64,000 nucleotides of DNA, from the NCBI RefSeq assembly GCF_963678975.1, contig NC_089280.1, forward strand, positions 15,908,780-15,972,779. Reading direction: 5' to 3'. The DNA comes from Dysidea avara. Taxonomy: Eukaryota; Porifera; Demospongiae; Dictyoceratida; Dysideidae. The position numbers and the translations under genes are program-made. Below the pieces are notes generated by a model. It ran no database searches, had not been told where the DNA came from, and was given only the letters and a program-made list of their open reading frames with translations. Below, in pieces: positions 3,343 through 50,733 of this stretch (position 1 is its first letter; each line of letters opens with the position of its first letter).

Positions 3343-4933
3343 CTACGTCCTCAATCTTGGCATGATATCAAGTAGTGAGGATAGTTGATCATTCTGTTCT
3401 GTAACATAGAAGTATATATTGAATTTCATTGTGGAGTTAATTGCAGTTAAATTACCATTAGCAACAACCACTTGATGTGCCACTTCATCTACAGCACTTC
3501 CATCTCTTATAGTGAACACTAGACACTGATATTTACCATCATGTTTCACTGAGTGGACAGTGAGATGGTGAGTGGTGCCTTGTAGTGACCTGAAGCTTGG
3601 AGACACAGAAACAGAGTGATCATCATCTCCATTTTGGTGGATGATGGAACTTTTATAAAACCATCCCACCCAGTAGTGATTTGGATCACCATCCACTTCA
3701 CATGATAAAGTGATGGGTAGACCAGGTCTAGTAACAGTAGCATTGAGTGGGGGACTGACTATCTTTGGTTTGGATATCACTGCGTGAGAATAAACACCAT
3801 ATCATACCATTTGCAGTCATGCATATATATTCTATTATGTGGAATTATTACTAAACATACCTTGAATGGTTTCAGTTTTCTTTGCTTGTGTATCAGTGAA
3901 GCATTTTAAGTCAAAAGTAATGTCTTTTTTTAAACAGGTGATATTAAAGTTGTTAGTATAGTTGGAAGATTGTAGAGCTTCTTTACCTCTTAGAAAACCT
4001 CCATGAACTGAACAATTTGAATTCTTTTGCAGCTGAACTTTTATAAATGATGGTTTCTTTTCACCAGTGAAAATGCATCTACCACTGACTGTTTCTCCAG
4101 CATATATAGTACTTGAAATGCTTAGTTCTACATTGTTTTCTGAAACTATAAAACAATATGTACATTACACCAATTAGTATAACTTATGTTCTACCTTGAA
4201 TGATTTTATGTTTCTCTGCTTGTGTATCAGTGAAGCATCCCAAGTCAAAAGTAATGTCTTTTTTAAAACAGGTGATATTGAAGTTGTTAGTATAGTTGGA
4301 AGATTGTAGAACTTCTTTACCTCTTAGAAAACCTCCATGGACTGAACAATTTGAATCCTTTTGCAGTTGAACTTTTATAAATGATGGTTTCTTTACACCA
4401 GTGAAAATGCATCTACCACTGACTGTTTCTCCAGCATATATAGTATTTGAAATGCTTAGTTCTACATTGTTTCTTCCTAAAACTATAAAACAACATGTAT
4501 AGCCATTGGTATAACTTATGTTCTATGTATGTACCTTGAATGGTTTTATGCTTCTTTGCTTGTGTATTAGTAAAGCATCTCAAGTTAAAAATAATGTCTT
4601 TCTTAAAACAGGTAATATTGAAGTTGTTAGCATAGTTGGAAGATTGCAAAGCTTCTTTACCTATTACAAAACCTCCAAGAACAGAGCAATTTGAATTCTT
4701 TGGCAGTTGAACTTTTATGAACAATGGCTTCCTTTTACCAGTGAAAATACATCTACCACTGACTGTTTCTCCAGCATATATAGTACTTGAAATGCTTAGT
4801 TCTACATTGTTTCCTGAAACTATAAAACAATATGTACATTATAGCCATTATATAGCCTAGCCTATGTTCTCTTACCTATAATACAGAGAGACATCAGTAC
4901 ACTAGCTGTTGTTATGATTCCAGGGATCCCCAT
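3343..4933 (-). CDS. Secreted Ig-domain protein with three four-Cys domains (gene 1)
   Basis: Six exons on the minus strand: 4933-4876, 4813-4535, 4476-4195, 4139-3861, 3779-3456 and 3398-3343. All introns are GT-AG, 55-81 nt and phase 1; the predicted protein is 425 aa. Residues 1-19 (MGIPGIITTASVLMSLCII) form a signal peptide. Residues 20-112, 113-206 and 207-299 are three copies of a domain with Cys at about positions 22, 43, 69 and 80. Residues 300-407 are Ig-like: TLSC, a Trp 13 residues later, then DGKYQC. The tail ends SSLLDIMPRLRT. NATVT and NIT are likely N-glycosylation sites. No membrane segment is visible, so it is probably secreted; a weak GPI signal is possible. The start is the second ATG, because the upstream ATG at the same site is out of frame with the signal peptide. 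A TATA box lies ~90 bp upstream. Function is unknown; recognition or immunity is inferred from architecture only. Confidence 0.82.
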
Positions 4934-5023
4934 TGTACATTGACTTCAGTTATAGACAGTTAGGTACAATGGCTTGTATACAATATACTGTTTGAACTAT
5001 GTGAACCACTCAGAGTCAGCTGC

Positions 5024-5076
5024 TTTTATAGCTTAACTGTTCACTTCCCCTAAATGGATGTGGTTCCCCTTTGACC
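5024..5076 (-). promoter_or_regulatory. Core promoter of gene 1: TATA box and two GGGGAA motifs
   Basis: Read on the minus strand, AAAGGGGAAC (about 5063-5074) and AGGGGAAGTGAAC (about 5039-5051) precede GCTATAAAAGC (TATA at 5024-5030). The ATG is ~90 bp downstream. The arrangement is repeated at every family member. GGGGAAGTGAAC resembles an ETS or ETS/IRF composite site; that reading is inference. Confidence 0.6.
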
Positions 5077-5379
5077 AAATATAGCTAATAGCTATACTTC
5101 AGTGAATTTTTTTGTCTTAGCCACTGAGTGTGTCTTCTGTATTGAGGTAAGGGTGTCTAGTTTGTATGGTTTTGATGATGGATCACATAATAGCAGCGTA
5201 AACAGTTGTGTTTGTCTAAGACATGTTGGATGCAGACGCTGTTAAAGAGTATACTGTCCTCATTAAAGAACTTTTGCTATATCAGCAAGTATTTCATTAT
5301 GTAACTACATACTACAAAAGGGGAATATGCCAGATGGAAGGTTTCACTGTTATCATAACTAGCTGTGAATACAATCATT

Positions 5380-5485
5380 GCAGATAACAATGTGTAGACA
5401 AAAGATGTGTGGGCTAAAGGTCATGGTATGAGCGGTCCATATCAAAGGGAATAAGTTTACTAGTCCCATATGATAATGTTTGTCA
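5380..5485 (+). promoter_or_regulatory. Conserved upstream module with DR1-like site (gene 1)
   Basis: Contains GGGCTAAAGGTCA (5411-5423), then AAGGGAATAAGTTTAC and TAGTCCCAT.TGATAAT. The same series of blocks recurs near other family members. GGGCTA-A-AGGTCA fits a direct repeat with 1-bp spacing, as bound by RXR/HNF4-type nuclear receptors; binding is inferred. Confidence 0.5.
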
Positions 5486-5870
5486 ATACACTGACCATTA
5501 TCACCACAGTGCAAAGCTTACAGGTATGTAGCTTCCCACATAGTAACACTGCTGTGACTCATGATCACTTCATAGTTAATTGACAAGGGCGTCAGAGTAG
5601 GTGCAACCAGTGAGGCCTAGAGCCTCACCACATTTTGGCTCAGTGAAATAAAAAAAAACTTACGAACATATGCATGATAGCTAATGCTTGTCAATACACT
5701 GACCATTATCACCACAGTGCAAAGCTTACAGGTATGCAGCTTCCCACATAGTAACACTACTGTGACTCATGATCACTTCATAGTTAATCGTCAACAAGGG
5801 CGTCAGAGTATTTGCGACCAGTGAGGCCTAGAGCCTCACCATATTTTGGCTCAGTGAAATAAAAAAAAAA
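5478..5870. repeat. Tandem duplication spanning host DNA and the hAT left end
   Basis: About 185 bp starting at TTGTCAATACACTGACC (about 5478) is repeated from about 5688. Each copy contains ~105 bp of pre-insertion host sequence plus the first ~80 bp of the element, including GAGGCCTAGAGCCTCACCA. The duplication therefore happened after the transposon landed. Confidence 0.7.
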
Positions 5871-6286
5871 TAAACATGATGAAGCCAAATTAAAAGTAGT
5901 TAGCACGTAATACTTGGCATCAATTTAATAGCAATAATAGACAGAAGCAACACTAATCTAACCTGTCTTTTACTCAGAACAGCTTCGTGTCGACTTCGTC
6001 CGAATTAGGCGCCTCTAAAATAATTACCGTTATACTATCTTTGGCTTTGTTTCTCTTTGCAGCTGCTTTGGAAACACTTCTTACTGTTTATTATAGACTC
6101 AAATGATAAGGTTAGGAATTATGGAGGTGCTTTTTGGTCAGTCTCCATGGAACACTTGCACACAGTACCACGGCAACCAAAGAGTGCCTCCAAATGGCAT
6201 CTCTAAATGTGCAATTTAAAAAATTTCCTTGGGGGCATGCCCCCAGACTGAGCCTTACCACTTTCACTTTTACTCTGATGTCCCTG
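5583..6286. mobile_element. hAT-type miniature element with internal duplication
   Basis: The flanks are perfect 8-bp direct repeats GTTAATTG (5575-5582 and 6287-6294). The ends match as inverted repeats: CAAGGGCGTCAGAGTA on the left and CAGGGACATCAGAGTA reading inward from the right. It is absent from the equivalent site in segment B (about 21115). It includes GGGGGCATGCCCCC near 6232. No transposase is seen. Confidence 0.75.
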
Positions 6287-6294
6287 GTTAATTG

Positions 6295-7506
6295 TTTTGT
6301 CTCAGCTCTACGTGATGTTGTTGCATGCGCATGCCATTATACATGCTTGCATGTAATATTTAATTTCTAAAGTATATGAATGTGCTAATGTTTGAGCACT
6401 TGAGTTACTATTTGCTGTACTTACATATTAGTTTATGCTACCAAGTATCTGCAGTACATGACCATGCATGCCAACATACAAATGGATATTCGCAAGTTAT
6501 CATTGCATTGCCCACACACATCACACAGGTAGGAAGTAAGTAGACAACTCATAAGGGAAAAACCAGCACAGCATTTAAGAATTTCCTGTACTTTGAAGAG
6601 GATAATTATTTGAACACTAGCAATAGATAGACACATGGATGTGTGGGCTATAGGGACTTATGCAGTCTACCATGCATGTGGGGTTCACGTAAGCAATGCA
6701 TAATCAAGTATTCTATGTATTCCAGCAATTATTTGTCCCTGGATAATCAGGTAGTTCATTCAACTCTGTACTTGCAGCAATTGTGTAGAGACACTACTAG
6801 CATTTACATGAATTTATGCATACACATGTTTAGCAATTTGATAAGAAGTGCTATATTGTAGGAAGTCCATGTCACCCACTAAGTTCTAGCTAGCCTGTAA
6901 GTGTATAATGGCAATATAGTACGTTTAGTGCAAAAGATCATGATCAAGAAATTACACATAGCAACATATCATGCTGTTACTAGGATGTCACTGATGACAC
7001 TGAATGCTGTAAATATATAATTTACATGATCGGGTTGTGTAATTTAGCACTAAAGCCATTTAGCTATAATATTGTCGAACGAAAGTGAAATAATATCTCA
7101 TCATACACACTGTTAGCATAGTATACCACATGTCACACTTACACTTACACTGATACATTTATATAGAGCATATTACAGCATGTGATCTCAGTAGAAAAAA
7201 ATACAATCTGGTGATTATCAAATGGGATTTAAACATGTTAAGTTCCCCTTGTTTGTGCAAATCCGACCACAACATGATGACCTTAAAATTTAACCCACAC
7301 ATACCCATTGTCATCATATACAATGATTGTTCCCATAAAAGTCATACAGCAAGCTGGTATTCCCCATGTTGTATAACATACATACATACATTCTAATTAT
7401 AACTGATCATCAATACACTGTATGTAATACATCCTTTTAAAGCCATGCATGTAATACACCAGTACAGTAGAATACAAGTACTACATGTATTTGAGGAAGT
7501 TTTCCA
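6295..7506. other. Gene-free spacer between genes 1 and 2
   Basis: Matches segment B from about 21130 to 22270. Apart from the inverted module at 7211-7340 I see no gene or structured RNA. A block near 6630-6660 (ATGGATGTGTGGGCTATAGG) is another weak relative of the DR1 module. Confidence 0.5.
7211..7340 (-). promoter_or_regulatory. Degenerate inverted module 3' of pseudogene 2
   Basis: Read on the minus strand: ACAATGGGTATG, TTAAGGTCATCATG, CAAGGGGAACTTAACATG and AAATCCCATTTGATAA, in the same order as the upstream modules. The DR1 is broken by an insertion of T and A. It has a counterpart at about 22021-22135. Confidence 0.4.
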
Positions 7507-8344
7507 CTAAGAGAAAAGTCCAGATAAAGTATTCAAGGATGATGGTGATGACTTTTTACTATCACCTGGAGTATAAAGCAAACAATAACATCATTAATGC
7601 TGGTAATTAATGCTCAACTGTGTACCTTTACTGATAGTCACTTGATGGGTTAGTTGATCTACAACACTTTCATCTCTTATAGTGAACACTACAGACACTG
7701 ATATTTACCATCATGTTTCACAGAGTGGACAGTGAGGTGGTGAGTGGTGCCTTGTAGTGACCTGAAGCTGGGAGACACAGAAAGTCAAGCAGAGTGATCA
7801 TCATCTCCATTTTGGATGATGGAAAGTTTATCCACCCAGTAGTGATTTGGATCACCATCCACTTCACATGATAAAGTGATGGTCTAGTAGCAGTGGCATT
7901 AACTGGATTGCTGATTACTATTGGTTTGAATGCTATAAAGTAAGTATGCAGATTGGCATTCAATAAACCCTATACACTGTGTTTTGTGTTATTTTATCTT
8001 GAATTATATTTACTTGTGATTTCATTATTGTTGTTAGTGTTGCATTCCAAATCAAAAGAAATGTTACTCTTTAAACAGGTAATCTTGAAGTTTGCATGTT
8101 GTAGAGTGAGACCCATTGCAAGTCCTTGGACCCATCCTACTGACACATATAATCCTGGGTTTGTTTACTTCAGTAAAAACACATCTTCCATTGACTGTTT
8201 CTCCAGCACAAAGGGTACTTGAGCCCATTAAACTCAACTTTAGCTCTCCTAAACATTGTGATCTGGAAATGTTACAACTACATAAGTGCAGATTCTCACC
8301 TTTATATGAGTACTATCAATTGTCGTTGCAACAATTCCAATCAT
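7507..8344 (-). pseudogene. Ig-family pseudogene (gene 2)
   Basis: The minus strand retains recognisable exons: signal peptide from 8344, four-Cys domain about 8255-8030, Ig exon 7932-7626, and tail exon 7565-7507 ending LNTLSGLFS. The signal peptide is shortened and frameshifted relative to its duplicate at 28397. The four-Cys exon has lost the segment with the second Cys. The Ig exon carries several small deletions and insertions around the GWFYKS and VSVSP regions, so no continuous frame remains. A TATA box (8433-8439) and upstream motifs survive. This is a host gene relic of the gene 3/6 type (AFKP replaces VSDHEP at the start of the Ig exon). Confidence 0.75.
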
Positions 8345-8432
8345 CTTGATTAAGGTAAAATTGCAGCAGTCAGTTAGTTACCCTACACTAGAAGTGTTAT
8401 ACGTAACTTAAGGAGCACAGATAAAGATCTGC

Positions 8433-8500
8433 TTTTATAAGCTGGTTGTTAATTTCCCCTGGCCCACCATCAATTGTAAGTACTTCCCTTTGCACAAATG
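8433..8500 (-). promoter_or_regulatory. Relic promoter of pseudogene 2
   Basis: TATAAAA at 8433-8439 (minus), with GGGGAAATTAACAACCAGC and an outer AAGGGAAGTAC block upstream. It has survived despite the broken coding exons. Confidence 0.5.
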
Positions 8501-10209
8501 TACTTCCTCATCATTGATCTTTACAATTTGATTTGATCTGTTATGTAGTACTATTGCATAAGACCGACCATAACATAATATTTGTTGTATGTGTACAGTT
8601 TAAAATGTCCCAGCATCTTGAGTATTCAGTCTATGAGTTCCCACAAAACTAACTGTATTGATTAAAATGTAATTAATGGCTAAGGTGATTTCCATAATTA
8701 CTGACTTCTATATGGACATAATATGTATTAAGAGGAGATGGTCATTAATTGATGACATAGCTAGCTATATGCTACTGTAACAGTTACACCAGACCTGCAA
8801 CTTTGTTGTACATCGCCATTATTTTGAATACATGTTTCTAATCACTTTTTGTGTATGGTCATTTCCTTAACAACTCTTTGGAAAAATTGTCAGATGTGTT
8901 TTACAATTAAATTTTGTGTCCCTGGGTTTCTCTGATGCTTTAATAGTTTGCCCACCTGTAACATGTTTACCCATTGTGATCATGTAAAAAATTTCCCTTT
9001 TTATATACAGGGAATTTTAGCATGGCACAATCATTATGCATACATAATTGGCTGTGACATTCCCCACATTAGTGATTTGTGTGCTTTGCAATTGTTCAAC
9101 AGAATCACAACTACATATACTTTATAGCAATGACATAGAGGACTACAATAATGCTTTCTGATAGCATAATATTACCCAATGACAACATATACATTTGTAC
9201 ATACGACCTCATTTAGATGGGCATGCAACACTTATCACTTAATCACATACAATAGATAGCAGCTACGTACATGTACACATACTTGCAGGATATTTTAATC
9301 AGCTTTCCTTGTAATGCACACAATGGATGAAATCACTGAAAGATGTATTTGTATTTGAAAGGATGTTACAAGCTAAAACCATTGACATCTACTGATTTAG
9401 GTGCTACAATTAACTCTAATTGATCTGTGAAGAATTGTATATTTTTCATCTTAACTCCTTAAAACCCAGCCTTAATTCTCTGTTTATTTGTAATGCATAC
9501 TATTATTGGCTATATTGCCATTACTTTGCAAATCACATTAACTATGTAATGTAAATAGCCAAACAACTGTAATAGAGTAGAGTAACACTATTAAGCATGC
9601 TATGTTTAGAGAAAGAGTAATAGATCGAGAGTAACTAATGTGTGTAGGATCATCAAGCTACCTAGGAATACATGCATTCGGATTGTAGTTCGATTTTGTG
9701 TGAAATAATTGGTGAGATAACATAGTGCAAGGTCCAAGTAAATTCTGTGATTGCAAAATATGAGACAAAATTGCATAATGCTTCTCCACATATTATGTAT
9801 AAATACTACTATACAATCTTCTTAGTCTTCTAGTAGAATTTTTGTGCAAGTCAGACATTAATACCTAGAAACGTGGACCTTCACTTAAACTCATTACAAT
9901 GGCTTAGTAAATGTATTGAGACTGTATAGCAGCTGTGCAGAGGGTAAGTTGATGTCCTTCTGATAATATAAGTTTACAAAGGTAATGGACTCAACATATG
10001 TTTGAACTCTTGAAAATGTACATAGAGAAATCCTATAGCTTACAACTAGCTACGTATAGGACAACTCAAGTGAGATGCTGTAGTCTATGTATAGTTATCA
10101 TTAAATCTAAAATGATACAGTTACTATTTATCTTCAGTAGATGTTCATGGGCCTAACTTTCCCACCTGATCAAAATATTAAAACACACTTCTATCAACAA
10201 AAGATTAAA
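8501..10209. other. Gene-free spacer upstream of pseudogene 2
   Basis: AT-rich, matched in segment B at about 28560-29700 with indels. No gene seen. Confidence 0.5.
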
Positions 10210-10215
10210 GCAAAA

Positions 10216-10925
10216 CAGGGGTATAGCCAGGATTTTTTGAAGGGGGGTTCCAGCACCAGCATTGAGTTACTAGAAGCAGGGGTCTGGGGGCACAGCCCCC
10301 AGCCGCTGAGAGACTTTCAATATTTTAGTAAATCAAAACTCAGCAAATCGCTATATTTTATGCAAAAAGTACATTAATTATGATGCATTAAGTGGCCCTG
10401 GGATGAAGGTATACTGTAGTACTAGATAAAGTCACCTAGTGGAAGCAGACAGCATAACACATAGAGACACATATAGCTAGTAATCTGTAAGTGATGGTTA
10501 TATCTCACTGTGGTATAGGAGCCATGAATCCACTGATACAAATGACGATCAAACAATATAACTATACAAATATGCATAGCATGAATTCATTTTGCATAAC
10601 ACAAGTGATAAATTACTGGAGCTCTATATCTTTAAACACTGCATACCAAAGCTATAGCAGTATAAGGTCATGCTAAGTTTTGCATTTAATGTTGGAATGT
10701 TTGAAAAACTTCATATGGATATGGATATTTACATGCATGTTCTATTAGAGTATACCTGACTGCTCTATTAGAGTAAATACCTGACTGCTCTATTAGAGTA
10801 TATCGATCTTTTTAACAAGTTTTGAAGAGGGCTCATGTTACCTCTGTAAATCCTTCCCTGAGAGATGAATGTAAGTTTTATCAATTGTTGTGCTGTGCCA
10901 CTACACTATATTGCTCACGCCCCTG
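10216..10925. mobile_element. CAGGGG-ended miniature transposon
   Basis: The ends are CAGGGGTATAGCCAGG and, reverse-complemented from the right, CAGGGGCGTGAGC. It is flanked by GCAAAA direct repeats (10210-10215 and 10926-10931). The equivalent site in segment B (about 29712) is empty. It contains GTCTGGGGGCACAGCCCCCAG and three ACTCTAATAGAGCAG-type motifs. No coding capacity. Confidence 0.7.
10740..10812 (-). repeat. Three copies of the ACTCTAATAGAGCAGTC mini-repeat
   Basis: Reverse orientation: TCTATTAGAGTA occurs three times, with GACTGCTC between copies, ending in ATCGATC. It lies inside the 10216-10925 element. Confidence 0.75.
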
Positions 10926-10931
10926 GCAAAA

Positions 10932-11744
10932 TGTCACTATCAACTCTTGAAGCATATTATGATCATCTACTGCATTTAGCTAACTGCACTAGTAACCTAC
11001 AAATGATTAACACTATATGGCTGCAAGTGAGCGTGTTGTTATTGTAGTGTAATATTTTTAATATTTGCATTTTGAATTTTTTTTAAATTCCGATACGTAT
11101 ATTTTCTTTATTTGTATTGAACCTTCATGTTCTTGATGCTATGGTGTCTTCACCTGTATCAAGATAAAAGTGACCTTAACATGGAAGTAAAGTTTATTAC
11201 ATCGAAGCTAGCTATACATACAGTTACGAAATTCGTCAATGAGTGAAAGTAATCTTAATATACACTGAAAGCAAACATTTTTGTAATAGTAGTGTGTGCA
11301 TATACACAATTTTCCTTACTTTGTAATTTATCACGTTTATCTTTGTTTTGTTTCAGTGAGTTCAATATTTTTGTTTTTGGATTGTTTTAGATTCTTCTAC
11401 TGCTGTTTTCTTTGGAGTAGTTTAAACAACACATTATTATGTTGTCTAGCTATCCATTTGTGTTGTCCCTATACACTTTCTCATCAATTATTCAGTGTGA
11501 TTTGGTATCAATCTTGTTCTTCACTTATAATTTATTGCACATCTACGTACCGTATACTTCTGTGATCTTTTTATTGAATTCTAATTTCTTATGCTGTTTT
11601 TTGTCAGGTTTTGGCATTATTTAATCTCCATGCAAAGTTTGCGAATGATTATATGTAGGGATCTCAAGTATCTCATTTCATTGTATTAGCAAAGTTTATG
11701 GAACTTACATGCACATTTAGGCAGCACCAAGAGCTTGTTGCCAC

Positions 11745-11780
<36 letters not shown>

Positions 11781-12015
11781 GATCAGGTGCATGCAGTTGT
11801 ATCAAAACCTTGTAATTAGTTTCATGGGCACCAACATATGAACGTATTTCTGTGTTAAATTATGGGACAGATAAAGAGAGCCATTAACACTTGAATATTC
11901 ATTCACTCTTTACTAATGTACAATACATAATTGAGTTTGGTTATCTCTGAATAACCCTGTAGTATTAATAACATTATAATAACCTAGCCTTAAACTATTA
12001 GTAATGTCAGTCAAG
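10932..12015. other. Gene-free spacer with AT dinucleotide tract
   Basis: Matches segment B on both sides of the nested insertion (29715-30000 and 35550-36310). An (AT)n tract sits at about 11747-11776. No gene supported. Confidence 0.5.
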
Positions 12016-12023
12016 TGTATAAC

Positions 12024-12539
12024 CAGTGTTGGGAGTAACGCGTTACGTAATATTAGTATTACTTTTGTGGTAACTAAGTAATATAACGAAATACGCTACA
12101 AAAACGAGTAATATAACTGATGTTACTTTACTTACAAATGTAACGCGTTACCAAAGTAATATAGTTACTGTAACGAGTCTAATATTACATAATATTATTA
12201 CTACAAGTAACAAAGTTACTGATCTCATTAGTTATCCTCTGAGTAACGCCTAGCCACAACGAAGTAACGAAGTCTACTGAATGAAGCTTATTCACCAGCT
12301 TCTTACTTATAACCAAGATTTGCACATTGTCCAACAATACAATCATGGCACGTGATAAAGTGGTAGTTTCACACGTGACAGCTAAAGGCTGTGGACACAA
12401 ATTAATATAATATGTAATATTATTATAGTTACTTTATTTTATGGGTAATATGTACGTAACTGTAACTAAATAGTTCAGTTGCAAGTAATATGTAATATAT
12501 GTAACTAGTTACTTTTACAAAGTAACTTGCCCAACACTG
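12024..12539. mobile_element. hAT miniature element, CAGTGTTGGG ends
   Basis: Ends are CAGTGTTGGG and CCCAACACTG, with perfect 8-bp duplications TGTATAAC (12016-12023 and 12540-12547). The 516-bp interior is rich in GTTAC/GTAAC repeats. The matching site in segment B (about 36312) is empty, so this insertion postdates the segmental duplication or was lost cleanly from B. Confidence 0.85.
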
Positions 12540-12734
12540 TGTATAACATATATAATTGACATGATAAGTAAAATAAGACTAAAGTTGCATTTGCTATACG
12601 TATATTGCTCTAGTATACAAGCAAGAACTCTCTACCATAAAAGGGCTAGGAAAATCTATATGTAGCAGACTATAGATGTAATATATGGCACTATTATCAT
12701 AACTTCCTACAGTGAATGTACTTAGTGACAGTTG

Positions 12735-12855
12735 CTATTGATGACAAAGAGTAGACACATGTATGTATATGGGAGCTAAAGGTCATCATGTGAGTGGTTA
12801 ATAGCAGCATTTTAAGGGGAATAACATTACAAGTCCCATCTGATAATACTTGTTA
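12735..12855 (+). promoter_or_regulatory. Conserved upstream module (gene 3, distal)
   Basis: GAGCTAAAGGTCA ends at 12785, followed by AAGGGGAATAACATTAC and AGTCCCATCTGATAAT. It lies ~1.5 kb upstream of gene 3 in the direct orientation. Confidence 0.48.
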
Positions 12856-13443
12856 CTAAACGTATGTGCTAAGATTAAGGAAAGTTATTAAATTTTTCCA
12901 GTGCATGATATTGCTCATTATAGTTTCTATGTGTATCGGCAGTAGGACAGTAAGAAATAGTCAACCCTTGTGATATATAAGAGGAGCCACTATTAAATGC
13001 ATATTGATTAAATACAAAAGTTTCAAATCTCAGTTGTGTGGCTTTTAAGGCACTTTATAAGAATGCTAGTTGCATGGAGATAACTTGCCAGGTTGGAATT
13101 TTTCTGCATTTGATGGAGAACAAAGATTCTGACTCACAGTAGACTTTATGCAGGTCCCTAGTGGGAAAGTAAAAACTGATGATGATAGGTACATTAATTT
13201 AACCTGCATAGGGAAATGTTAACAGTTGCTTGAATGCTCCATCAGAAATGTATATATTCAACGTCATCATACTGTACATATATGGATGCTTGTACAATGC
13301 AAGTTATCCCTCACATAGCACATAGGAATATGGGCAGCATACATACTCCAATTAATTTCATCACAATGTGACACTGTTGTCATAATTTCCTGTAGTTTGA
13401 AAAAGCTGGTAATCTTTTAAATACCATAACAATAACCAAACGT

Positions 13444-13600
13444 ATGGATGTGTGGGCTAAAGGGATTTTAAGCGGCTCAACCAGGAAATCATTGTATGAT
13501 AACAATGTGCATGTGTGGGCGAAAGGTCATGGTTTACAGCAAGACAGTTATATATGGGAACTTAAGATTTCCATGCAAGTCCCATCAGATAGTGCTATGA
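13444..13600 (+). promoter_or_regulatory. Conserved upstream module (gene 3, proximal double)
   Basis: GGGCTAAAGGG (13454-13464) and GGGCGAAAGGTCA (13517-13529) are followed by AAGTCCCATCAGATAG. It is ~0.7 kb upstream of gene 3 and conserved at gene 6. A 67-codon open stretch here (13444-13647) is not convincing as a gene. Confidence 0.48.
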
Positions 13601-14149
13601 ATATCCATTATCACCATACTGTGAATCTTCCTATACACATGTGTTGAGATTTACAAACAATTTAAGAATTAAAGCAATACTGCAACAGTGTATATACTTA
13701 GATCTCCATAATAATGTCATCTCAAATAAGATCATGCATGTGCATGTTCTTAGTCAAGATTGTAATGTGCTATATATAGCGCTGTATGTGTATTGTGACA
13801 TATTATTTCACTTTCTGTAAAGAACAATGCATATAAACAACAAGTGTTAAACACAATGCAGGATATCATTTGATCACATCTAGTAGCTAGACAAGTTTAC
13901 TCGGCTGAGCTAGTAAATTAAGTTTCATTCTATATAGACCGACTAACAACTAGGCGATGGCTACTACACATATGTAGGTGTAGTACTACAAAAGCACGAT
14001 CTCATAGTGATAAATTAGGCAATAGAACAAATTAAGTGCACTACACAAATATGTAAATCTATAGTTCCCACAAAATCACACTGATAAGGTGTTTTTCTCA
14101 TGGTTGATAAACTTATTCAACATGAATGGTAAAGGGAAGTACACTCAAT

Positions 14150-14189
14150 TGATGGTCGGTGAGGGGAAGTCAACAACCAGCCTATAAAA
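14150..14189 (+). promoter_or_regulatory. Core promoter of gene 3
   Basis: An AATTGATGG block, then GAGGGGAAGTCAACAACCAG, then CTATAAAAGC with the TATA box at 14183-14189. The start codon is at 14260. The block is conserved in gene 6 and, on the minus strand, at pseudogenes 2 and 5. Confidence 0.62.
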
Positions 14190-14259
14190 GCAACACGTGC
14201 TCTGTGCTGTGTTATATCATTTCAAACCAGCTCAGTGACTAACTACTACAATTACGAAG

Positions 14260-15181
14260 ATGACTAGAATTGCTACAACAGCAAGTCTCATATTGGTAGT
14301 ACTCATATATAAAGGTGAGGATCTCACTCATATGTTGAAACATTCTGGAATACAGATATATTTTTAACACTGAATAGGAGATGCTAAAGTTGAGCTTAAT
14401 CTTTCAAGTACCCTTCACAGTGGTGAAACAGTCAATGGAAGCTGTATTTTTACTGGAGTAAAGAAACCCAGGTATATACGGATCAGTGGGATGGGTCAAA
14501 ATTGTACAGTTGAAGGAGAAATTGCAGCAGGTCTTGCTCTACAACATGCAAACTACATTAACAACTTTAAGATTACCTGTTTAAAGAGTAACATTTCTTT
14601 TGACTTAAAATGCAACACTAACAACAAGAATGAAATGATCAGTAAACCAGTTCAAGGTAAATAGCACAACATGCATAGAATGATTTTTACATTCTACATT
14701 CTATGTACCTACAGTGGTATCTGATCACGAACCAAAGATAGTCAGTCCCCCACTCAATGCTACTGTTACTAGACCTGGTCTACCCATCACTTTATCATGT
14801 GAAGTGGATGGTGATCCAAATCACTACTGGGTGGGATGGTTTTATAAAAGTTCCATAATCCAAAATGGAGATGATGATCACTCTGTTTCTGTGTCTCCAA
14901 GCTTCAGGTCACTACAAGGCACCACTCACCACCTCACTGTCCACTCTGTGAAACATGATGGCAAATATCAGTGTCTAGTGTTCACTATAAGAGATGGAAG
15001 TGTTGTAGATCAACTAACCCATCAAGTGACTATCAGTAAAAGTACATAAATACATGTACAGTTGAAATTTACATGTTTAAAATGTTCTCCTTTTCTTACT
15101 CCAGGAAATAGTGAAATATCATTGTCATCTTCTCCATCATCGTTGCCATTGTTGGATACTTTGTCTGGACTTTTGTCCTAA
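14260..15181 (+). CDS. Secreted Ig-domain protein with one four-Cys domain (gene 3)
   Basis: Four exons: 14260-14314, 14378-14656, 14715-15041 and 15105-15181; 245 aa; introns 58-63 nt, all phase 1. Residues 1-18 are a signal peptide (MTRIATTASLILVVLIYK). Residues 19-111 are the four-Cys domain (GSC, QNC, ITC, LKC), only roughly half identical to that of gene 1. Residues 112-220 are the Ig domain, almost identical to gene 1. The last 25 residues are Ser-rich and end LLDTLSGLLS; these could be a plain tail or a marginal GPI signal. A TATA box lies ~70 bp upstream of the start. A TATG microsatellite begins just after the stop, at the boundary of the duplicated segment. Molecular function is not recognisable beyond the Ig fold. 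Confidence 0.83.
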
Positions 15182-15228
15182 TGAATACATGTACTTGTAT
15201 ATGTTTAGCCAAACATGTACTTATCTGA

Positions 15229-15366
15229 TGTATGTATGTATGTATGCATGTATGTATGTATGCATGTATGTATGTATGTATGTGTGTATGTGTGTATGTG
15301 TGTATGTGTATGTGTGTATGTGTGTATGTGTGCATGTGTGAATGTATATATGTATGTATGTATGTA
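15229..15366. repeat. (TATG)n / (TGTGTATG)n microsatellite
   Basis: About 135 bp of TATG units with TGTG and CATG variants. It starts ~45 bp after the gene 3 stop and ends ~28 bp before the A/B segment joint. The corresponding site after gene 6 has only a short TGTATGTACATATAT stretch. Confidence 0.9.
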
Positions 15367-15393: not shown

Positions 15394-18300
15394 TGGAAGA
15401 GCTAGATAAATACAAGATAGTTTGGATGCTCACAGTATTCACACTGAAATTGTAGCATGTATGTCATTCTTAAACCATGCAGTACATGTGGCCTCATTAA
15501 CAGACATCACACTGTAAGAAATGAAGTGTGCCCTGTGACACCAAAATAGCACACTTTGGTGTCATGGAGCACACTTTTTGTATGCAAAGTGCATTTCATT
15601 TTTTACAGTGCATAATTAATAATTATAGTGCTATACGGCATGGTTTCAATGGTGAGGACCAGGAGGTCTTACAACGAGATCATAGTATTTATTTTCCATT
15701 GACTGTGCATCTTTGGACTGCATGGCATGCTATGACTTAAACTAATGAATCCCTTGTTCCCTTTAGAAGTATCATCTGCAGTATCAATTGATTAGTAAAT
15801 CTGCAATACATATTGGATATCGGCTTGGATATAAAATGTGTTATTGGTACAGCCTTAATAATGGCACCTGCAGAAGAGTAACTAAAACAGTCTATTATAT
15901 AAAAGATTTTCTGATAGTACTTGATACAAGAAAGCCGTTCAAATGCACTTGTGTGGCTTAGCAGCTATTGGGTCTCAATGATTATGTTAAAAGTGCCAAA
16001 ACAGGCCCTAAGGGATGTCCTGAATTATTGTTTATAATAGTAGCTACACATTGCTCAACTTTCACAGAAAACGTGGTGTGTTTATATCACAAAGTGAACA
16101 ATTCTTGCAAAATTTGTCACTTAGTCATGCTACTACAAAGCCATTATGCATATTCTAAATACATCGTGTATGTCTAGTCATTTCTATTTCCTTGACATGT
16201 TTTTGGAAGCATTCTCGTAAGAGATTTGTTTTTGAGTCTTTTCCCTTTGATTGCTTAAGCCATATGCAACTACAGACTGCATCAACCACACAGTTACACT
16301 ATGCTTGTATATAATTATATATTTACCATTCATTAATCATATGTAGCAGGGGAGCATCCATAGGGATGGATGCACTGTGAGCATGGTAGTAGGTAGCTAT
16401 ATAAAGCATGAGGTCTGGGGGCACAGAAGCTGTAAGTATTTCACATGTTTCAGGACCGAAATTTTAAATAAAAATTGTTAATTTGATAATAGAGCAGGGA
16501 TTTAGCTAAGTGATAAAAGATAATGAAACAAGAGATGAATGAAAATAATACAGCATATATAGCTCAGTGGGAAAATCCCTACTTTGGAATTGAACAAATT
16601 TGATGTAGAGTATAGCTTTTATGGCATATATCAAAGTAATAAATCACACTTTCTAAGTGGTCTACATTGATCAAGAGCTGAATGGAGGGATCAGTGACTG
16701 TCATGAAATCAGCTATGAGCCTAAAATCAATATAAGAATGACATAGGACATACGAAGGACTAAGTGTATTTAATTCCTAGCAGGATGCATAGCTAAGCAT
16801 GCTCATGGGTTGGTGCTGCAGATGCAAGTTTCATACTCAGTGGAGGACTCTTAATAGTGTTACATGTAGTGATTGTTCTATTAGAGTACATATTTGACTG
16901 ACCGCTCTAGTAGAGACTGCTCTAGAGAATTTTTTTTTTAGGGTAGCGGTGGTAGTGAAGGAGGGAAATGGGTAGGGGGAATGATGTGCTTGAACTACCA
17001 TGTCTGCAAAAACTGAGCATAAATTACGAGCATAGACATAACAGGTTATAATAACAGTACTACATATTGTCATTAAAAAGTTATGTATCATAAAAAAGTT
17101 TAGTAACATTTATGTGCCCATGCATGTGCCTGGTTTATGCAGACTCCCAGTCACCTTTTTTATCTGGTGATATAGACATGTACATGTAGTTATTTGTAAA
17201 GCCATATAGTCCAGGCCATGCAGTAAGCTATTTAATTGTCATGTTTGACAAAATTGCAAACAGAAATGGTAGCAAGAGACAATTAAACACCAAAACATGA
17301 CAGTGTACACTAAATGCAGTCTCCCTCTACCAAACGTGCAACAATAAATGTTGGTAACTAAAATGCAGCATCAGTAGAATGAAGCCGTATACCCATAAGT
17401 TGCCAATTATATCATAGCAGTCATAGAATATATTAGTTATTTACCCTAGTTCTTGGCTTTGCCTCGGACTTGTGTCAATATCTAAGATAATTCAATTACC
17501 CTGCTGCTTAAAAAATGGAATTGCTGAAAAACTTCATTCAGATTACTATTCAGGTCAGTGGCCAACTGGGTCAGCAGTACTGGCCCACTTACAATGCTGG
17601 CACTGAATGATATAAATGTACAACTGTACATGTACTAAAATAGGATAATAAAATATACATATGGGTGTTTTTGTGTGACTCCGTACACTATGCAGGAATA
17701 CATTTTGTGAATTTGTCCAGGAGTGCATGTATTCATTCATACTATAGTCATTAATAGATGACTTATTTTAAATCTCCTTGTATATGCATAAAGAATTAAC
17801 CTTTTGTATTGATATGCTACAGGAATCAGAAATTTTCCCTAAATGGTTAATGCCACTCACATCACACAACAAAGTAACCTTAAACCACACACATCTGCCT
17901 GTGGCTATTGTTATCACCCATGCAGTCATGTTGTGGTAACAGATGAGATTTGTGGTAGTGTTAATAGGTACATTCCCATTCGTAACAGTCTGCTACCCAC
18001 AGGCATGCATGGGAGTATCATGCATAAACTAATGATTTTCAATAAAGCACTGAGCTAAATTTTGTAGTTCATGCAGTCTATTGTGAATGAATATCTACTG
18101 TACATGTGTGTTAAGCATGCAAAAGTTCATGGCTCTCAGTAATATAAATGGTGTCAATGCTTGTAATGATATTAGTGATACTGCATTGCTACAGTAATTA
18201 ATGTATGAGAAAATAACAAACTATGCAATGTGGAAGTTTGACATGATGACATGTACAGGTCCAACAGAAGCCATGTAGTTTCTTCCTATATCCAATTTAG

Positions 18301-18735
18301 TAATTTTCATTACATGACTTCCACTGTTTATTAACAAAGCATATGCAGCATCTATATACTCATGATCACAATATACATTGTCACTTGCAGACAGTAATAT
18401 GCTATAACTATTACAAATAGGGTGTATGGAAGTTAAGCATTAATGCTGTAGTACGTATGGTTTTAACTAATATGTGTAGCAAAGCTAATGTTTGAGTGCT
18501 CAATTAATATACAAATTACAGAGGTGTACTAATTGCATGTTATATCAATATGGTATATATAGATTGCCTGCATATATAGTATAATTTACACTATGAGCAC
18601 AGTGTTATTTGGTAAAACTATTTTATTAAAAATTTAACAACATTTACTTTTACAACACAGTTGTATAATACAATATATATACAATACATGATTTTGTGCA
18701 TGCTTTATTCAATTCATTGTCATGTATCAGTTGTC
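15394..18735. other. Gene-free start of segment B
   Basis: A close copy of 1-3342 with small indels. No gene supported. A degenerate mini-repeat pair (TTCTATTAGAGTA, GCTCTAGTAGAG) lies at about 16868-16930. Confidence 0.6.
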
Positions 18736-28555: not shown

Positions 28556-28559
28556 TAGA

Positions 28560-34735: not shown

Positions 34736-34742
34736 CAATATA

Positions 34743-34981: not shown

Positions 34982-35150
34982 TATGTATTATACAGCATAT
35001 ATAATTTGTACATTTACTGATAAAATATTTAAAGTACATCTACTTTATCTTTTCTTCTTCCTGTAGTAAAGAAAAAAAACATAGGTTAAAAAAGTCCCAA
35101 AGCTGGCCATAGGCCGGCTTTGGGGTATACAAATACAAAAAGAAATGAAA

Positions 35151-35469: not shown

Positions 35470-36474
35470 TTACTTTGTTACCACAAAAGTAATAATATTA
35501 CGTAACGCGTTACATAAGTAACGCGTTACTCCCAATACTGTATATACGTATACAGTTACAAAATTCGTCAATGAGTGAAAGTAATCTTAATATACACTGA
35601 AAGCAAACATTTATTGTAATAGTAGTGCACACAATTTTTCTTAAATGACACTTCGTAATTTATCATGTTTATCTTTGTTTCGTTTCAGTGAGTTCGTTTT
35701 TTGGATTGTTTATGTACTTTAAGAATCTTCTACTGCTGCTGTCTTTGGAGTAGTTTACAGTGTACACAACACATTATTACATTGTCTAGCTATCCATTTG
35801 TGTTGTTCCTACCCTTTGTCATCAATTATTCATCTACATCATACGTACAGTACCTTACACTTTTGTTGTCAGGTTTTGGTCTCCTGCGGATGATTATGCA
35901 GAGATTTCAAGTATCTTACTCAACTCATTTCATTGTATTAGCAAAGTTTATGGAGCTTATATGCACATATAGGCAGCATCAACCATCAGAAGCTTGTTGC
36001 CACCCTTATATATGTACCACTTTGATACCTTGCAACCCTCGGGCTTGGGCATATATATCAGGCAAATCCCATGGTATAACTATTAAATATATATAAGGGT
36101 ACGAATGTATTCCTGTGTTAAATTATGGGACAGATAAAGAGAGCCATTAACACTCGAATATTCATTCATTATTTACTAATGTACAATAAATAATTGAGTT
36201 TCGTTATCTCTTTAATAGCCTTGTAGCAAGATAGTGGAGCTACTATAACTCTTGTTTGTAGTATTAATGATATTACAATAACCTTAAACTATTAGTAATG
36301 TCAGTAAAGTGTATGACAGAATAAGACTGAAGTTGCATTTGCTATATGTATATTACTCTAGTATGCAAGCAAGAATTCTCTACCATATAAGAGCTAGGGA
36401 AATCTATATGTAGCAGACTAGCTGTAATATATGGGACTGTTCCTGCAGTGAATGTAGAATGTACTTAGTGACAA

Positions 36475-36580
36475 TCAAGTAGACACATGTATATACGCAT
36501 GTGTGGGCTAGAGGTCATCATGTGAGTGGTTTATAGCATTTCAAGGGGAATAACATTACAAGTCCCATCTGATTATATTT
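36475..36580 (+). promoter_or_regulatory. Conserved upstream module (gene 6, distal)
   Basis: GGGCTAGAGGTCA at 36505-36517, followed by AAGGGGAATAACATTAC and AGTCCCATCTGATTAT. The counterpart of 12735-12855. Confidence 0.48.
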
Positions 36581-37189
36581 TTTACTAAATGTATGTGATA
36601 AGATTAAGGAAAGTTACCAAATTTTTCTGGTGCATGCACAATATTGCTCATTAGTTTCTGTGTGCATCAGCAGTGGGATAGTAAGAAATAGTCAACGCTT
36701 ATGATATAAGAGAAGCCTCTGTTAAAGTATTGATTAAACGCAAAGGTTCCATATTCAGTTGTGTGGCTTTTTAGGCACTTTATAAGAATGCTAGTTGCAT
36801 GGAGATAACTTGCCAAGTTGGAATTTTTTTCTGCATTCAATGGAGAACAAAGATTCTGACTTACAGCAGACCTTCTAGTCTTCTTGCAGGTCCCAGAAAG
36901 TAACTGATATTGATACATAGGTACATTGATTTTACCTATATAGGGAAATGTTAAAAGTTGTGTGAATGCTCCATCAGATATATATTTATGTATCCAACAT
37001 CATCATACTATATGCATATGGATGCTTGTACAATGCAAGCTATGATTACATAGCCCACAGATAGCACATAGGTGCATGGGTAGCATACACACTCCAGGTA
37101 ATTTCAACACAATGTGACACTGTTGTCATAATTTCCTGTAGTTTGAAAAAGCTGGCAATCTTTTGAATACCATAACAATAACCAAACAT

Positions 37190-37375
37190 ATGGATGTGTG
37201 GGCTAAAGGGGTTTTAGTCTACCATATAAGTGATGTAAGCTGCTCAACCAGGACAATCATTGTATGATAACATTGTACATGTGTGGGCGAAAGGTCATGG
37301 TTTAAAGCAAACCAGCTATATAGGGAAACTTACGATTTCCATACAAGTCCCATCAGATAGTGTTTATGAATATCC
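37190..37375 (+). promoter_or_regulatory. Conserved upstream module (gene 6, proximal double)
   Basis: GGGCTAAAGGGG (from about 37199) and GGGCGAAAGGTCA (37285-37297) are followed by AAGTCCCATCAGATAG. The counterpart of 13444-13600. Confidence 0.48.
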
Positions 37376-37860
37376 ATTATCACCAGATTGTTAATCTTCC
37401 TACACATGTGCTGAGATTTACAAGCAATTTAAGAATTAAAGCAATACTGCATTAAGAATTAAAACAACACTGCAACATTGTATACTCAGTCTCCATAATA
37501 ATGTCATCCCAAATGAGATCATGCATGTGCATGTTCTTAGTCAAGATCGTAATGTGCTATATATAGCGCTGTATGTGTATTGTGATATATTATTTCACTT
37601 TCTGTAAAGAACAATGCATATAAACAACAAGTGTTAAACACAATGCAGGATATCATTTGATCACATCTAGTAGCTAGACAAGTTTACTCAGCTGAGCTAG
37701 TAAAACACAATCTCATAGTGATAAATTATACAATGAAACAAATTAAGTGCACCACACAGATATGTAAATCTATAGTTCTCGCAAAATTGTATTGATAAGT
37801 AAGGTGTTTTTCTCACATTTGATAAACTTATTCAACATGATTGGTAAAGGAAAGTACACT

Positions 37861-37904
37861 CAATTGATGATTGGTGAGGGGAAGTCAACAACCAGCCTAT
37901 AAAA
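37861..37904 (+). promoter_or_regulatory. Core promoter of gene 6
   Basis: CAATTGATG, then GAGGGGAAGTCAACAACCAG, then TATAAAA at 37898-37904. Nearly identical to gene 3. Confidence 0.62.
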
Positions 37905-37984
37905 GCAACACATGTGCTGTGCTGATTTATAGCATTTCAAACCAGCTCAGTCACTAACTGCTACAATTATAATCTTCAATGAAG

Positions 37985-38899
37985 ATGACTAGAATTGCTA
38001 CAACAGCAAGTCTCATATTGGTAGTACTTATATATAAAGGTGAGAATCTCACTCATATGTTGAAACATTTCTGGAATACAGATATTTTTAACACTGAATA
38101 GGAGATGCTAATGTTGAGCTGAACCTTTCAAGTACCCTCTACAGTGGTGAAACAGTCAACGGAAGTTGTATTTTTACTGGAGTAAAAAAACCCAGGTATA
38201 TACGGATCAGTGGGATGGGTCAAAATTGTACAGTTGAAGGAGAAATTACAGCAGGCCTTGCTCTACAACATGCAAACTACATTAACAACTTTAAGATCAC
38301 CTGTTTAAAGAGTAACATTTCTTTTGACTTGGAATGCAACACTAACAACAAGAATGAAATGATCAGTAAACCAGTTCAAGGTAAATAGCACAAAATGTAT
38401 AGAATGACTTTATGTATTACAATCTATATTACACCTACAGTGGTGTCTGATCATGAACCAAAGATAGTCAGTCCCCCACTCAATGCTACTGTTACTAGAC
38501 CTGGTCTACCCATCACTTTATCATGTGAAGTGCATGGTGATCCAAATCACTACTTGGTGGGATGGTTTTATAAAAGTTCCATAATCCAAAATGGAGATGA
38601 TGATCACTCTGTTTCTGTGTCTCCAAGCTTTAGGTCACTACAAGGCACCACTCACCACCTCACTGTCCACTCTGTGAAACACGATGGCAAATATCAGTGT
38701 CTAGTGTTCACTATAAGAGACGGAAGTGTTGTAGATAAACTAACCCATCAAGTGACTATCAGTAAAGGTATGCAGTTGCCCAGTTAGCATTTATATGTTT
38801 ATAATGTCTCCTTTTCTTACTCCAGGAAATAGTGAAACACCGCCATCATCTTCATCATCATCGTCATTGTTGGATGCCTTGTCTGGACTTTTCTCTTAA
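37985..38899 (+). CDS. Secreted Ig-domain protein with one four-Cys domain (gene 6, duplicate of gene 3)
   Basis: Exons: 37985-38039, 38102-38380, 38441-38767 and 38826-38899; 244 aa, all introns phase 1. It is the duplicate of gene 3 and all splice sites are conserved. An in-frame ATG six bases upstream (37979) would add Met-Lys; the downstream start is preferred because gene 3 lacks the upstream ATG. The Ig domain differs from gene 3 by about three residues, including Trp to Leu in NHYLVGW; the conserved core Trp in VGWFY is kept. The tail has a run of Ser and ends LLDALSGLFS. The CTATAAAAGC box at ~37897-37906 is conserved. Confidence 0.82.
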
Positions 38900-39091
38900 T
38901 GAAAAACTCCTCAATACATGTACTTGTATATAATTAGCCAAATTGTATTATATTATCTGATGTATGTACATATATTAATATTAATTTACATATACAAATT
39001 TAGTGTTGTACATTATGAAGAGCTATATAAAGAACTGATCAATGCAAGAGACACAGATTAATTTATATCCCTCAAAAATTTGTCCATCTGC

Positions 39092-48444: not shown

Positions 48445-48480
<36 letters not shown>

Positions 48481-49284
48481 AACGCTATGTACATGTTACC
48501 ATGAATTCATGATCTAGCTGCTGAGGCTTACTCAATGTAAAGACTTATACATTGGAACCCTTTGAAATCTGCACTTCCATATGCATGTAAAGGTACGAGA
48601 GTGGTGCTCTATGTGATCTAGTAGTAACAAACCAACATCTGATGATGCTCCTATCCTCCTGGTACAGTAATTATGAAGGAAATTTCCTGTACTGTATGAA
48701 CTCAGATGCAACATATGCATGTGCATATCCTGCCAACATTATGTGTTTAATCAGTGGCACAAAGTTAAATGTTAACGTGTCTGACAGATACGGCGTGTCC
48801 TACACAAAGAAAATATTCAGAAAAAAAGTTGATTATTACATTTTGACCAATACTTGATTTCCTTTAGTTGTAAGGAAAAAGTTGAAATTTGTGATTGATG
48901 CATAAGCCTTGTGCGAACCTAAAACAGATCAAACTAAAAAAATGGTTGCTATCTCAATACAAACTACCATTTTTCTGCTTACTAAGCACATAATTGTGTG
49001 GTACATGATTAATGGGAAAAATACCAACAACTACATGTATTAAATTACTGAAAAAGATAGTGATGGTCCATTTATCCGATTGTTTGCATAATAATGAAGG
49101 AATTATGCATGTAAAGTATCCATTCAGATTAAGAATGTAGATGTTGTTTCATGTAAATGTATAAATGTCAGTCAAATGATGCAAGAAGTGTTATAGAAAA
49201 TTACCACAACTATAATGTCTCGCAGTATCAGTGCTTTCTGTTGGAGACAATATATAGTGACCATGAGTATAGACATGGATGTGT
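47435..49284. other. Gene-free stretch with repeat debris
   Basis: Contains a degenerate mini-repeat (GTTCTATT..AGTAGTTGACTG, about 48060-48110), a GGGGGGTGCTTCAGCACCCC hairpin at about 48296-48320 with CCCCCCTAAATCCACCC, and a (TG)n tract at 48448-48476. A 71-codon open stretch at 48642 shows no recognisable domain. No gene supported. Confidence 0.5.
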
Positions 49285-49382
49285 ATGTGTGGGCTAAAGG
49301 TCATCATGTTAGTGGCTTACAACAAACAAGGGGGAAATCTGGATTTTAAGATTTCTAAGTCCCATCTGATAATGTTTCTGAA
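49285..49382 (+). promoter_or_regulatory. Conserved module downstream of gene 7
   Basis: GGGCTAAAGGTCA at 49291-49303, then AAGGGGGAAATC and AAGTCCCATCTGATAAT. It lies ~0.5 kb beyond the gene 7 stop, so it flanks the gene on its 3' side. Confidence 0.42.
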
Positions 49383-49809
49383 TGCTCTTGATTAATCAAT
49401 GGCAGATTATTTATATGTAAATGCAAGCTTTTACGTAAGTGCTAAACACAAAGGTATCAATCTCACATCATCATGTTTTATTTATTATATTATTACTAGT
49501 AGTATACCCATGGCAGTGCATGCATGCATCATTAATTTTCATAAACTTACTTAGAGTATGCATAATTTTGTAACTCTGTGCAATTTTTGTGCACTTGAAA
49601 CCCCTCTCTTCCAATGGTAAATGGTGAATGATTTCATAAAAAGCTTGGCTAAGATTTAAGAAGCAATTATACCTGGTTTTATAATTACCCAGTAATTAGC
49701 TATATACTTATATATATTTACAATTTCACAGAGCATATTGATGATGTATGTACATATGCAATACTACATAAGTATACAATACAACTAAGTTCATGTATGA
49801 AGGAGTTTT
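49383..49809. other. 3' flank of gene 7
   Basis: AT-rich, no gene. An AATAAA-like signal for gene 7 could not be fixed. Confidence 0.35.
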
Positions 49810-50733
49810 TCATCCAGAGAAAAATCCAGACAGAGCATACAACAATGACGATTTTTCACTGTCTCCTGTAGGATGATAACAACAATGACATACATTTACA
49901 TAAAGGCCAACTGTGTACCTTTACTGATAGTCACTTGATGGGTTAGTTGATCTACAGCACTTCCATCTCTTATTGTGAACACTAGACACTGATATTTACC
50001 ATCATGTTTCACAGAGTGGACAGTGAGGTGGTGAGTGGTGCCTTGTAGTGACCTGAAGCTGGGAGACACAGAAAAAGAGTGATCATCATCTCCATTTTGG
50101 ATGATAGAACTTTTATAAAACCATCCCACCCAGTATTGATTTGGATCACCATCCACTTCACATGACAAAGTGATGGGTAGACCAGGTCTAGTAACAGTAG
50201 CATTGAGTGGGGGACTGACTATCTTTGGTTTGGATGTCACTGCGTGAGAATAAACATGCATATGTTACATTATGTAAAAGCAGCTACGTGTATAACATTA
50301 GTGTTAAAATCCTATACTAATCAGAGTATGGGGAATTTTATATTACATACCTTGAATTGTTTTAGTTGTCCTTGCCCTTGTATTAGTGTAGCAGTTCAAG
50401 TCAAAGGTAACATCACTTTTTAAACAAGTGATAATGAAGTTGTTGATGTAGTGTGAGGGTTGTAAGTGTTTGTGTGATACAGCACTTCCCTCAATTGAAC
50501 AGTTTGGGTCTTTTTCTGAGATTCGCATATATGCTGGCTTATGTTTACCAATGAAAATACAGCTTCCACTGACTGCTTCTCCAGCATAAATAGTGGATGA
50601 AATGTGCAGCTCTACAATATTTCCTGAAACTATTAAACAACACATACATTATAACTATAACTATTGCTTGTGACTTCTCACCTATAAAACAGAGTGACAT
50701 TGTAACTAACATCAGCACACAAACTGTTGTCAT
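49810..50733 (-). CDS. Secreted Ig-domain protein with one four-Cys domain (gene 7, isolated member)
   Basis: Exons: 50733-50682, 50623-50351, 50239-49919 and 49865-49810; 233 aa, phase-1 introns throughout. The signal peptide is MTTVCVLMLVTMSLCFI, related to that of gene 1. The single four-Cys domain (91 codons) has the four Cys in SGSC, PNC, ITC and LNC, but is otherwise well diverged from both other classes. The Ig domain is almost identical to genes 1, 3, 4 and 6. The acceptor side of the preceding intron is the same as in genes 1 and 4. The tail ends LLYALSGFFSG. This gene lies outside the two 15-kb segments and is therefore an older family member, yet it shares the near-invariant Ig exon. 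Confidence 0.82.

Follow-up and report, generated by a model that had tools for sequence, protein, structure and literature searches.

The window analysed here, a stretch of 64,000 nucleotides from the sponge Dysidea avara (C9:15908780-15972779), holds a cluster of genes for immunoglobulin (Ig)-superfamily proteins that combine an Ig domain with one or more copies of a domain with four conserved cysteines (the four-Cys or C4 domain). Our preferred reading, held with evenly balanced confidence, is that these are secreted proteins with a head for extracellular recognition or adhesion, that their Ig half is homogenised between the genes, and that the cassette encoding both is shared with an adhesion G protein-coupled receptor (GPCR) gene. 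Since there are hundreds of Ig-set genes in a sponge (637 I-set genes in D. avara, a count given in a passage of PMC12909245), clustering alone is unremarkable; the unusual features are the four-Cys domain, the uneven divergence of the exons and the cassette in common with the adhesion GPCR gene. No published account of a secreted four-Cys/Ig family was recognised in literature searches that were mostly limited to listings, abstracts and passages.

Seven family loci lie within 3343-50733, five of them intact (A, C, D, F and G) and two broken (B and E), and no convincing further match was found in the window with six-frame open reading frames (ORFs) and tblastn of the exons. In all intact genes a signal-peptide exon comes first and an Ig exon and a tail exon come last, with a single four-Cys exon in between in C, F and G and three in A and D. 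All introns in the five intact gene models run from GT to AG, measure 53-111 bases and are in phase 1, so that every domain exon is 1-1 symmetric. Genes A (3343..4933, minus strand; signal peptide 4876-4933, four-Cys 4535-4813, 4195-4476 and 3861-4139, Ig 3456-3779, tail 3343-3398) and D (18736..20323, minus; signal peptide 20266-20323, four-Cys 19929-20207, 19589-19870 and 19255-19533, Ig 18849-19172, tail 18736-18791) each encode 425 residues with 9 N-glycosylation sequons. The single-head genes are C (14260..15181, plus; signal peptide 14260-14314, four-Cys 14378-14656, Ig 14715-15041, tail 15105-15181; 245 residues, 5 sequons), F (37985..38899, plus; signal peptide 37985-38039, four-Cys 38102-38380, Ig 38441-38767, tail 38826-38899; 244 residues, 5 sequons) and G (49810..50733, minus; signal peptide 50682-50733, four-Cys 50351-50623, Ig 49919-50239, tail 49810-49865; 233 residues, 2 sequons). 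Similarity between the intact genes is far beyond chance for four-Cys exons of different types (tblastn, E 1e-23 to 2e-32), and the Ig exons match with E below 1e-61. Pseudogene B (approximately 7505..8344, minus) has broken four-Cys (8009-8249) and Ig (around 7606-7927) exons, a signal-peptide remnant from about 8344 and a tail remnant. In pseudogene E (approximately 27190..28397, minus) the signal-peptide exon (28341-28397) is open, the four-Cys exon is frameshifted, the Ig exon contains stops and the tail is displaced to about 27190-27260; the stops and frameshifts differ between B and E. The six-frame ORFs, tblastn matches and gene models thus confirm the initial annotation, made from the sequence alone, in its count of five intact genes and two pseudogenes, in the order signal peptide, four-Cys domain(s), Ig domain and short tail, and in the differing domain number. 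The short tail is indeed present, but spliced on as an exon of its own, even in A and D; their tail intron is 57 bases long, and the reading frame stays open when it is unspliced.

Profile methods and structure prediction, which the initial annotation had named as a check, gave a clear family for one of the two domains. The Ig exon was identified as Ig_3 (PF13927, E 5e-10 to 6e-10, 40 bits against a cut-off of 30) in a Pfam whole-protein scan that covered F and G, two of the five intact proteins, and its sequence matches I-set/Ig_3 domains of titin, Robo1/2, Tyro3 and Axl (UFO), a likeness that shows no more than generic domain kinship. The four-Cys domain, in which the four cysteines are kept in 12 of 12 diverse copies, showed no consistent Pfam match and no Ig family for any of the 12 members. 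Its alignment to the Ig domain with hhalign had a probability of 0.2%, profile searches of the PDB yielded only matches at E 0.4 or worse, and pattern searches found no relative in collections of genome and viral contigs. Matches of single copies to DUF3617, CUB_CDCP1_1 and the DnaG zinc ribbon, each in one member, were taken as chance, as was a match to Defensin_1 (E 1). An AlphaFold2 model of the four-Cys domain shows an Ig-like beta-sandwich (predicted local distance difference test, pLDDT, 87.5), and the copy of G, 52-59% identical to the others, gave the same eight strands (pLDDT 84.8). With these models as support, an Ig-like sandwich is the predicted fold of the four-Cys domain as well; going by the order of its strands, its two disulphides would join C23 to C79 and C43 to C68.

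The two halves of the proteins have diverged to very different extents. The trees and the tables of synonymous divergence (dS) comprise 19 genes, leaving aside the broken loci, the members on C8 and, for A, D and 04A, four-Cys exons two and three; six gene pairs for Fisher tests and seven close pairs for selection tests were chosen by hand. Over 40 pairs of A-type with B/C-type genes the mean dS was 1.05 in the four-Cys and 0.20 in the Ig exon, and between the main cluster and a second cluster at 13 Mb it was 0.95-1.25 and 0.39-0.42, respectively. Similarly, dS to the receptor head at 24.5 Mb (see below) was 1.07 (four-Cys) and 0.17 (Ig) for A-type genes, and 0.40 and 0.22 for B/C-type genes. 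The difference between the exons was significant in all six gene pairs tried (Fisher p 5e-6 to 2e-10). When the seven close pairs were pooled, the proportions of synonymous differences were 0.131 (four-Cys) and 0.089 (Ig), so that the gap, small in close pairs and large between old types, grows with the age of the split, which is what repeated homogenisation of the Ig exon would produce. Monophyly of the main cluster is rejected by the four-Cys tree (p of the approximately unbiased test 0.005) and only weakly by the Ig tree (0.059). We consider gene conversion of the Ig exon the best explanation for the gap, which the sequence comparisons support but do not prove; a somewhat lower rate of change in the Ig exon may add to it.

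Both exons are under purifying selection: the ratio of nonsynonymous to synonymous differences (pN/pS), pooled over the seven close pairs, was below 1 in the four-Cys exon (0.40, p 3e-7) and in the Ig exon (0.41, p 7e-6). Diversifying selection on the four-Cys head was not found in these pooled pairs; the ratio for residues 31-60 of the head (0.62) is indistinguishable from 1 (p 0.17). Among 13 main-cluster genes the mean residue entropy was 0.86 in the head and 0.26 in the Ig domain, with variability peaking at residues 31-60 and 81-90, and heads of different gene types have only about half of their residues in common.

The same head was found in front of a receptor. At 24.5 Mb on C9, EGF exons lie downstream of C4-Ig exons and on their strand, with a short Cys-rich exon, in phase with the Ig donor and without a Pfam name, after C4-Ig. 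The copy at 24568 kb carries C4, Ig, EGF, HRM, GPS and 7tm_2 exons in this order on one strand. Its HRM consists of two half matches below the cut-off, its GPS exceeds the cut-off (E 1.5e-7), and its 7tm_2, placed by the genome search at C9:24556610-24558173, was matched in five of the eight stretches scanned, three of these matches exceeding the cut-off (best E 2.9e-14); its four-Cys exon contains a stop. The copy at 24516 kb was read over its C4, Ig and EGF exons; its C4-Ig exons are intact, and the genome search placed 7tm_2 at C9:24496440-24498209, 18 kb downstream. A third 7tm_2 region lies nearby (C9:24459715-24459990); all three are on the minus strand, and two are downstream of C4-Ig exons. 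GPS followed by 7tm_2, by which an adhesion GPCR is recognised, was thus seen among the 24.5 Mb relatives in the 24568 kb copy. By its predicted domains, the gene with the shared head is an adhesion GPCR, on the same chromosome as the window. The front of the receptor is 79.5% identical to the secreted gene 02B over 958 columns, spanning promoter, signal peptide, four-Cys and Ig; the similarity begins about 50 bases before the TATA box and stops where the Ig exon ends. In the four-Cys tree the receptor C4 falls together with that of 02B (support 97/92), and a tail of the secreted type occurs in the C6 locus and in at least one C8 locus; together these argue for transfer of the cassette from a secreted gene to the receptor, and passage from a B-type secreted gene into the receptor gene seems more likely than the reverse.

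That the window proteins are released from the cell was concluded from their ends. The C-terminal ends are SSLLDIMPRLRT (A), SSLLDIMPRLMT (D), LPLLDTLSGLLS (C), SSLLDALSGLFS (F) and SSLLYALSGFFSG (G), i.e. the tail peptide is present in all five intact genes, and related ends were found in 13 of the 17 further loci read; the remaining four comprise three loci at 24.5 Mb and the copy, described below, whose tail is out of frame. In addition, the C6 locus ends in SSSSLLSSLRTFLF, and ASLLDVIYELLF was seen in one of the three C8 loci read. The best 19-residue hydropathy past residue 30 was 0.68-0.73 in the five intact proteins, with no membrane segment in an accessible frame. It is highly improbable that a membrane-bound form arises from an alternative 3' splice site, with another frame of the tail exon encoding a hydrophobic helix. 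In B, C, F and G (and, by eye, in E) one such frame encodes a strikingly hydrophobic stretch, synonymous shuffles matched its hydrophobicity in 0 of 5000 cases for C and for F and in 0.6% of 5000 for G, and an AG acceptor for it is present in pseudogenes B and E (by eye) and in L003. In C, F and G, however, we found no AG acceptor into this frame and stops come before the hydrophobic stretch, so the membrane form was rejected for these three genes. Moreover, the other tail frame encodes a peptide that is conserved across clusters with changed codons, and in nine of the ten pairwise comparisons among B, C, E, F and G substitutions were fewest, or tied for fewest, at what would be the wobble base of the hydrophobic frame. 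Hydropathy and frame analysis thus bear out the absence of a visible membrane segment noted before, and the window proteins would be secreted with a conserved tail peptide rather than a membrane anchor.

We also found a common promoter arrangement upstream of all five intact genes. In gene A the core promoter (5023..5050, minus) has GGGGAAGT at 5043-5050 and TATAAAAG at 5023-5030, and in gene C (plus) the motif lies at 14163 and the TATA box at 14183. All five occurrences of the motif GGGGAAGT in the window precede the TATA-type box of an intact gene, at a start-to-start distance of 20-25 bases, and pseudogenes B and E each have one change in it. A TATAAA box is located 163-224 bases upstream of the first four-Cys exon in 24 of the 27 genes scanned, and in the other three the best TATA box picked by the script is farther away. 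The exact sequence AGGGGAAGT precedes the TATA box in 8 of 18 main-cluster loci and in none of the nine other genes scanned, counts for which no chance expectation was computed. NF-kB-like sites with one mismatch upstream of A, D and G were disregarded, as the window has 68 such sites.

The order A (minus), B (minus), C (plus) recurs as D (minus), E (minus), F (plus), with 70-91% identity piece by piece. The first block copy extends over 1..15236, where the left end may fall outside the window, and the second, longer because it holds satellite and other inserted sequence, over 15396..38968. The second copy substantiates the duplicated family proposed earlier, pseudogenes included, and the two orientations, correctly noted at the time, are explained by a three-gene block (minus, minus, plus) that is present twice. 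The family continues past the window on both sides. In the 550.8 Mb (108 contigs) searched, for which all locus counts are lower bounds, the joined 174 kb around the window (C9:15878780-16052779) has 18 loci, arranged from the left as minus, minus, plus four times, followed by G. Both the four-Cys and the Ig exons are unbroken in 13 of them (one of which, at 15900985, has its tail out of frame), and the other 5 are broken. Five further loci, one with a stop, lie at 13.04-13.16 Mb of C9, five (one intact) at 24.5 Mb, nine Ig loci at 21.12-21.51 Mb of C8 (three inspected in sequence) and one on C6, at least 38 related loci in all; seven additional Ig exons on C14, at 33-38% identity, are outside this count. 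This is the pattern of a family that has grown by tandem duplication of a three-gene block. An assembly artefact is unlikely, given the 9-30% difference between the block copies, their place in a contig of 36.7 Mb and the absence of any N from the joined 174 kb.

Several other features were seen in the region. A 31-base satellite (consensus CCTGTAGAGAGTTCAGCTACAAAGAAATCAC, with variants) forms two arrays (31345-34725 and 44096-46925), and sequence resembling it occurs at C9:15898401-15899460; a 28-base piece of it had no exact match. In each block copy a similar open frame without a Pfam match lies downstream of A or D (2701-3042 and 18224-18439, minus). Only one ORF in the window reaches 150 codons when counted from a start codon (23132-24127, minus, 331 codons); it has no Pfam match and perhaps derives from a mobile element. 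Fragments of a retrotransposon of the long interspersed nuclear element (LINE) type are present at 40406-42297, with one ORF that matches reverse transcriptase (RVT_1, E 6.7e-14). Between family members to the right of the window, an open frame of 1,423 codons that runs to the end of the stretch read (C9:15998510-16002778, L036:5731-9999) matches beta-helix and Chlamydia-PMP-type repeats, and weak Death-domain matches below the cut-off were found at L034:3714-4133 (E 0.0025) and L035:1423-1905 (E 0.0039).

In the mechanism that we propose, the four-Cys head would bind an extracellular target, and the Ig half and tail would form a common handle, with gene conversion keeping the Ig half alike as the heads of the different gene types drift apart. 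Towards the target met by the receptor-borne head, soluble forms might then serve as ligands, as bridges or as competitors. The products are likely secreted adhesion or recognition proteins, and among target classes (microbial, allogeneic or self) general cell-surface or matrix recognition or adhesion seems likeliest. A more specific, and rather doubtful, version is a paired soluble-ligand/receptor system, in which the adhesion GPCR has its promoter-driven head, with the four-Cys Ig-like domain, in common with some twenty secreted Ig proteins of two to four domains, the soluble forms compete with the receptor, bridge to it or activate it, and gene conversion keeps the Ig half uniform so that all heads stay compatible.

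An immune role for such a secreted Ig family is plausible by analogy. That the proteins bind microbes, opsonising or agglutinating bacteria in the manner of VCBPs or FREPs, is a real if tentative possibility to which the secreted Ig architecture, the clustering and the turnover of copies with pseudogenes point, and the TATA-type promoters would suit induced expression. In D. avara an Ig-superfamily gene was upregulated (log fold change 10.0 at 5 h) after exposure to microbial molecules, according to a passage of PMC6208332 that has no link to the four-Cys/Ig family. The Pfam scan of F and G, however, gave no lectin, fibrinogen or chitin-binding family, and a pN/pS of about 0.4 in both exons also speaks against this role. 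Purifying selection, with no hypervariability shown, would suit structural or developmental matrix proteins without a recognition role, the copies reflecting dosage and drift, a reading that we regard as unlikely. The high number of Ig-set genes in sponges (the 637 I-set genes of PMC12909245) agrees with it, whereas heads that are only half alike between types and the presence of the same head on an adhesion GPCR gene do not. Very unlikely, finally, is an allorecognition locus of the histocompatibility type. Clustered Ig-superfamily genes with pseudogenes and tandem duplication do recall the Alr complex of Hydractinia (in the passages of PMC11067881 consulted), but Alr1 and Alr2 are described there as single-pass membrane proteins and the window genes lack a transmembrane or signalling part. 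No sign of diversifying selection was seen in the seven close pairs, and a term search of the main text of an Amphimedon graft transcriptome study (PMC5450542) did not return the word "immunoglobulin".

Our preferred reading, that of secreted recognition or adhesion proteins, matters because sponge molecules for recognising self, nonself and microbes are poorly known, and the family supplies intact genes. With a candidate domain for which Pfam has no family, and a concrete receptor gene bearing the same head, it makes ligand-receptor and recognition hypotheses directly testable. The family also offers an example of an exon and promoter cassette common to secreted and receptor genes, in which one exon is apparently homogenised while its neighbour diverges.

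FREPs of snails and VCBPs of chordates are secreted immune multigene proteins with a signal peptide and Ig-type domains, features that they have in common with the window family. FREPs have a C-terminal fibrinogen domain, whereas F and G showed only Ig families in Pfam; similarly, VCBPs combine V domains with a chitin-binding domain, and no chitin-binding family was found in F and G. FREPs are also mentioned in a passage of PMC11999971. The Hydractinia Alr complex resembles the window in its clustered Ig-superfamily genes and pseudogenes, and its assignment to the superfamily was made by domain architecture and predicted structure (both from passages of PMC11067881). The same source describes Alr1 and Alr2 as single-pass membrane proteins with polymorphic ectodomains, whereas the window proteins are predicted to be secreted, a distinction that relies on the descriptions and not on sequence comparison; a single-pass membrane segment was found in none of the five window proteins. 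Adhesion GPCRs that combine Ig, EGF, HRM and GPS domains have been described from sponges (a passage of PMC4302439), and the 24.5 Mb relatives likewise have Ig, EGF, HRM-like, GPS and 7tm_2 parts. Unlike those receptors, they start with the Pfam-less four-Cys domain and carry a promoter-to-Ig cassette common to secreted genes.

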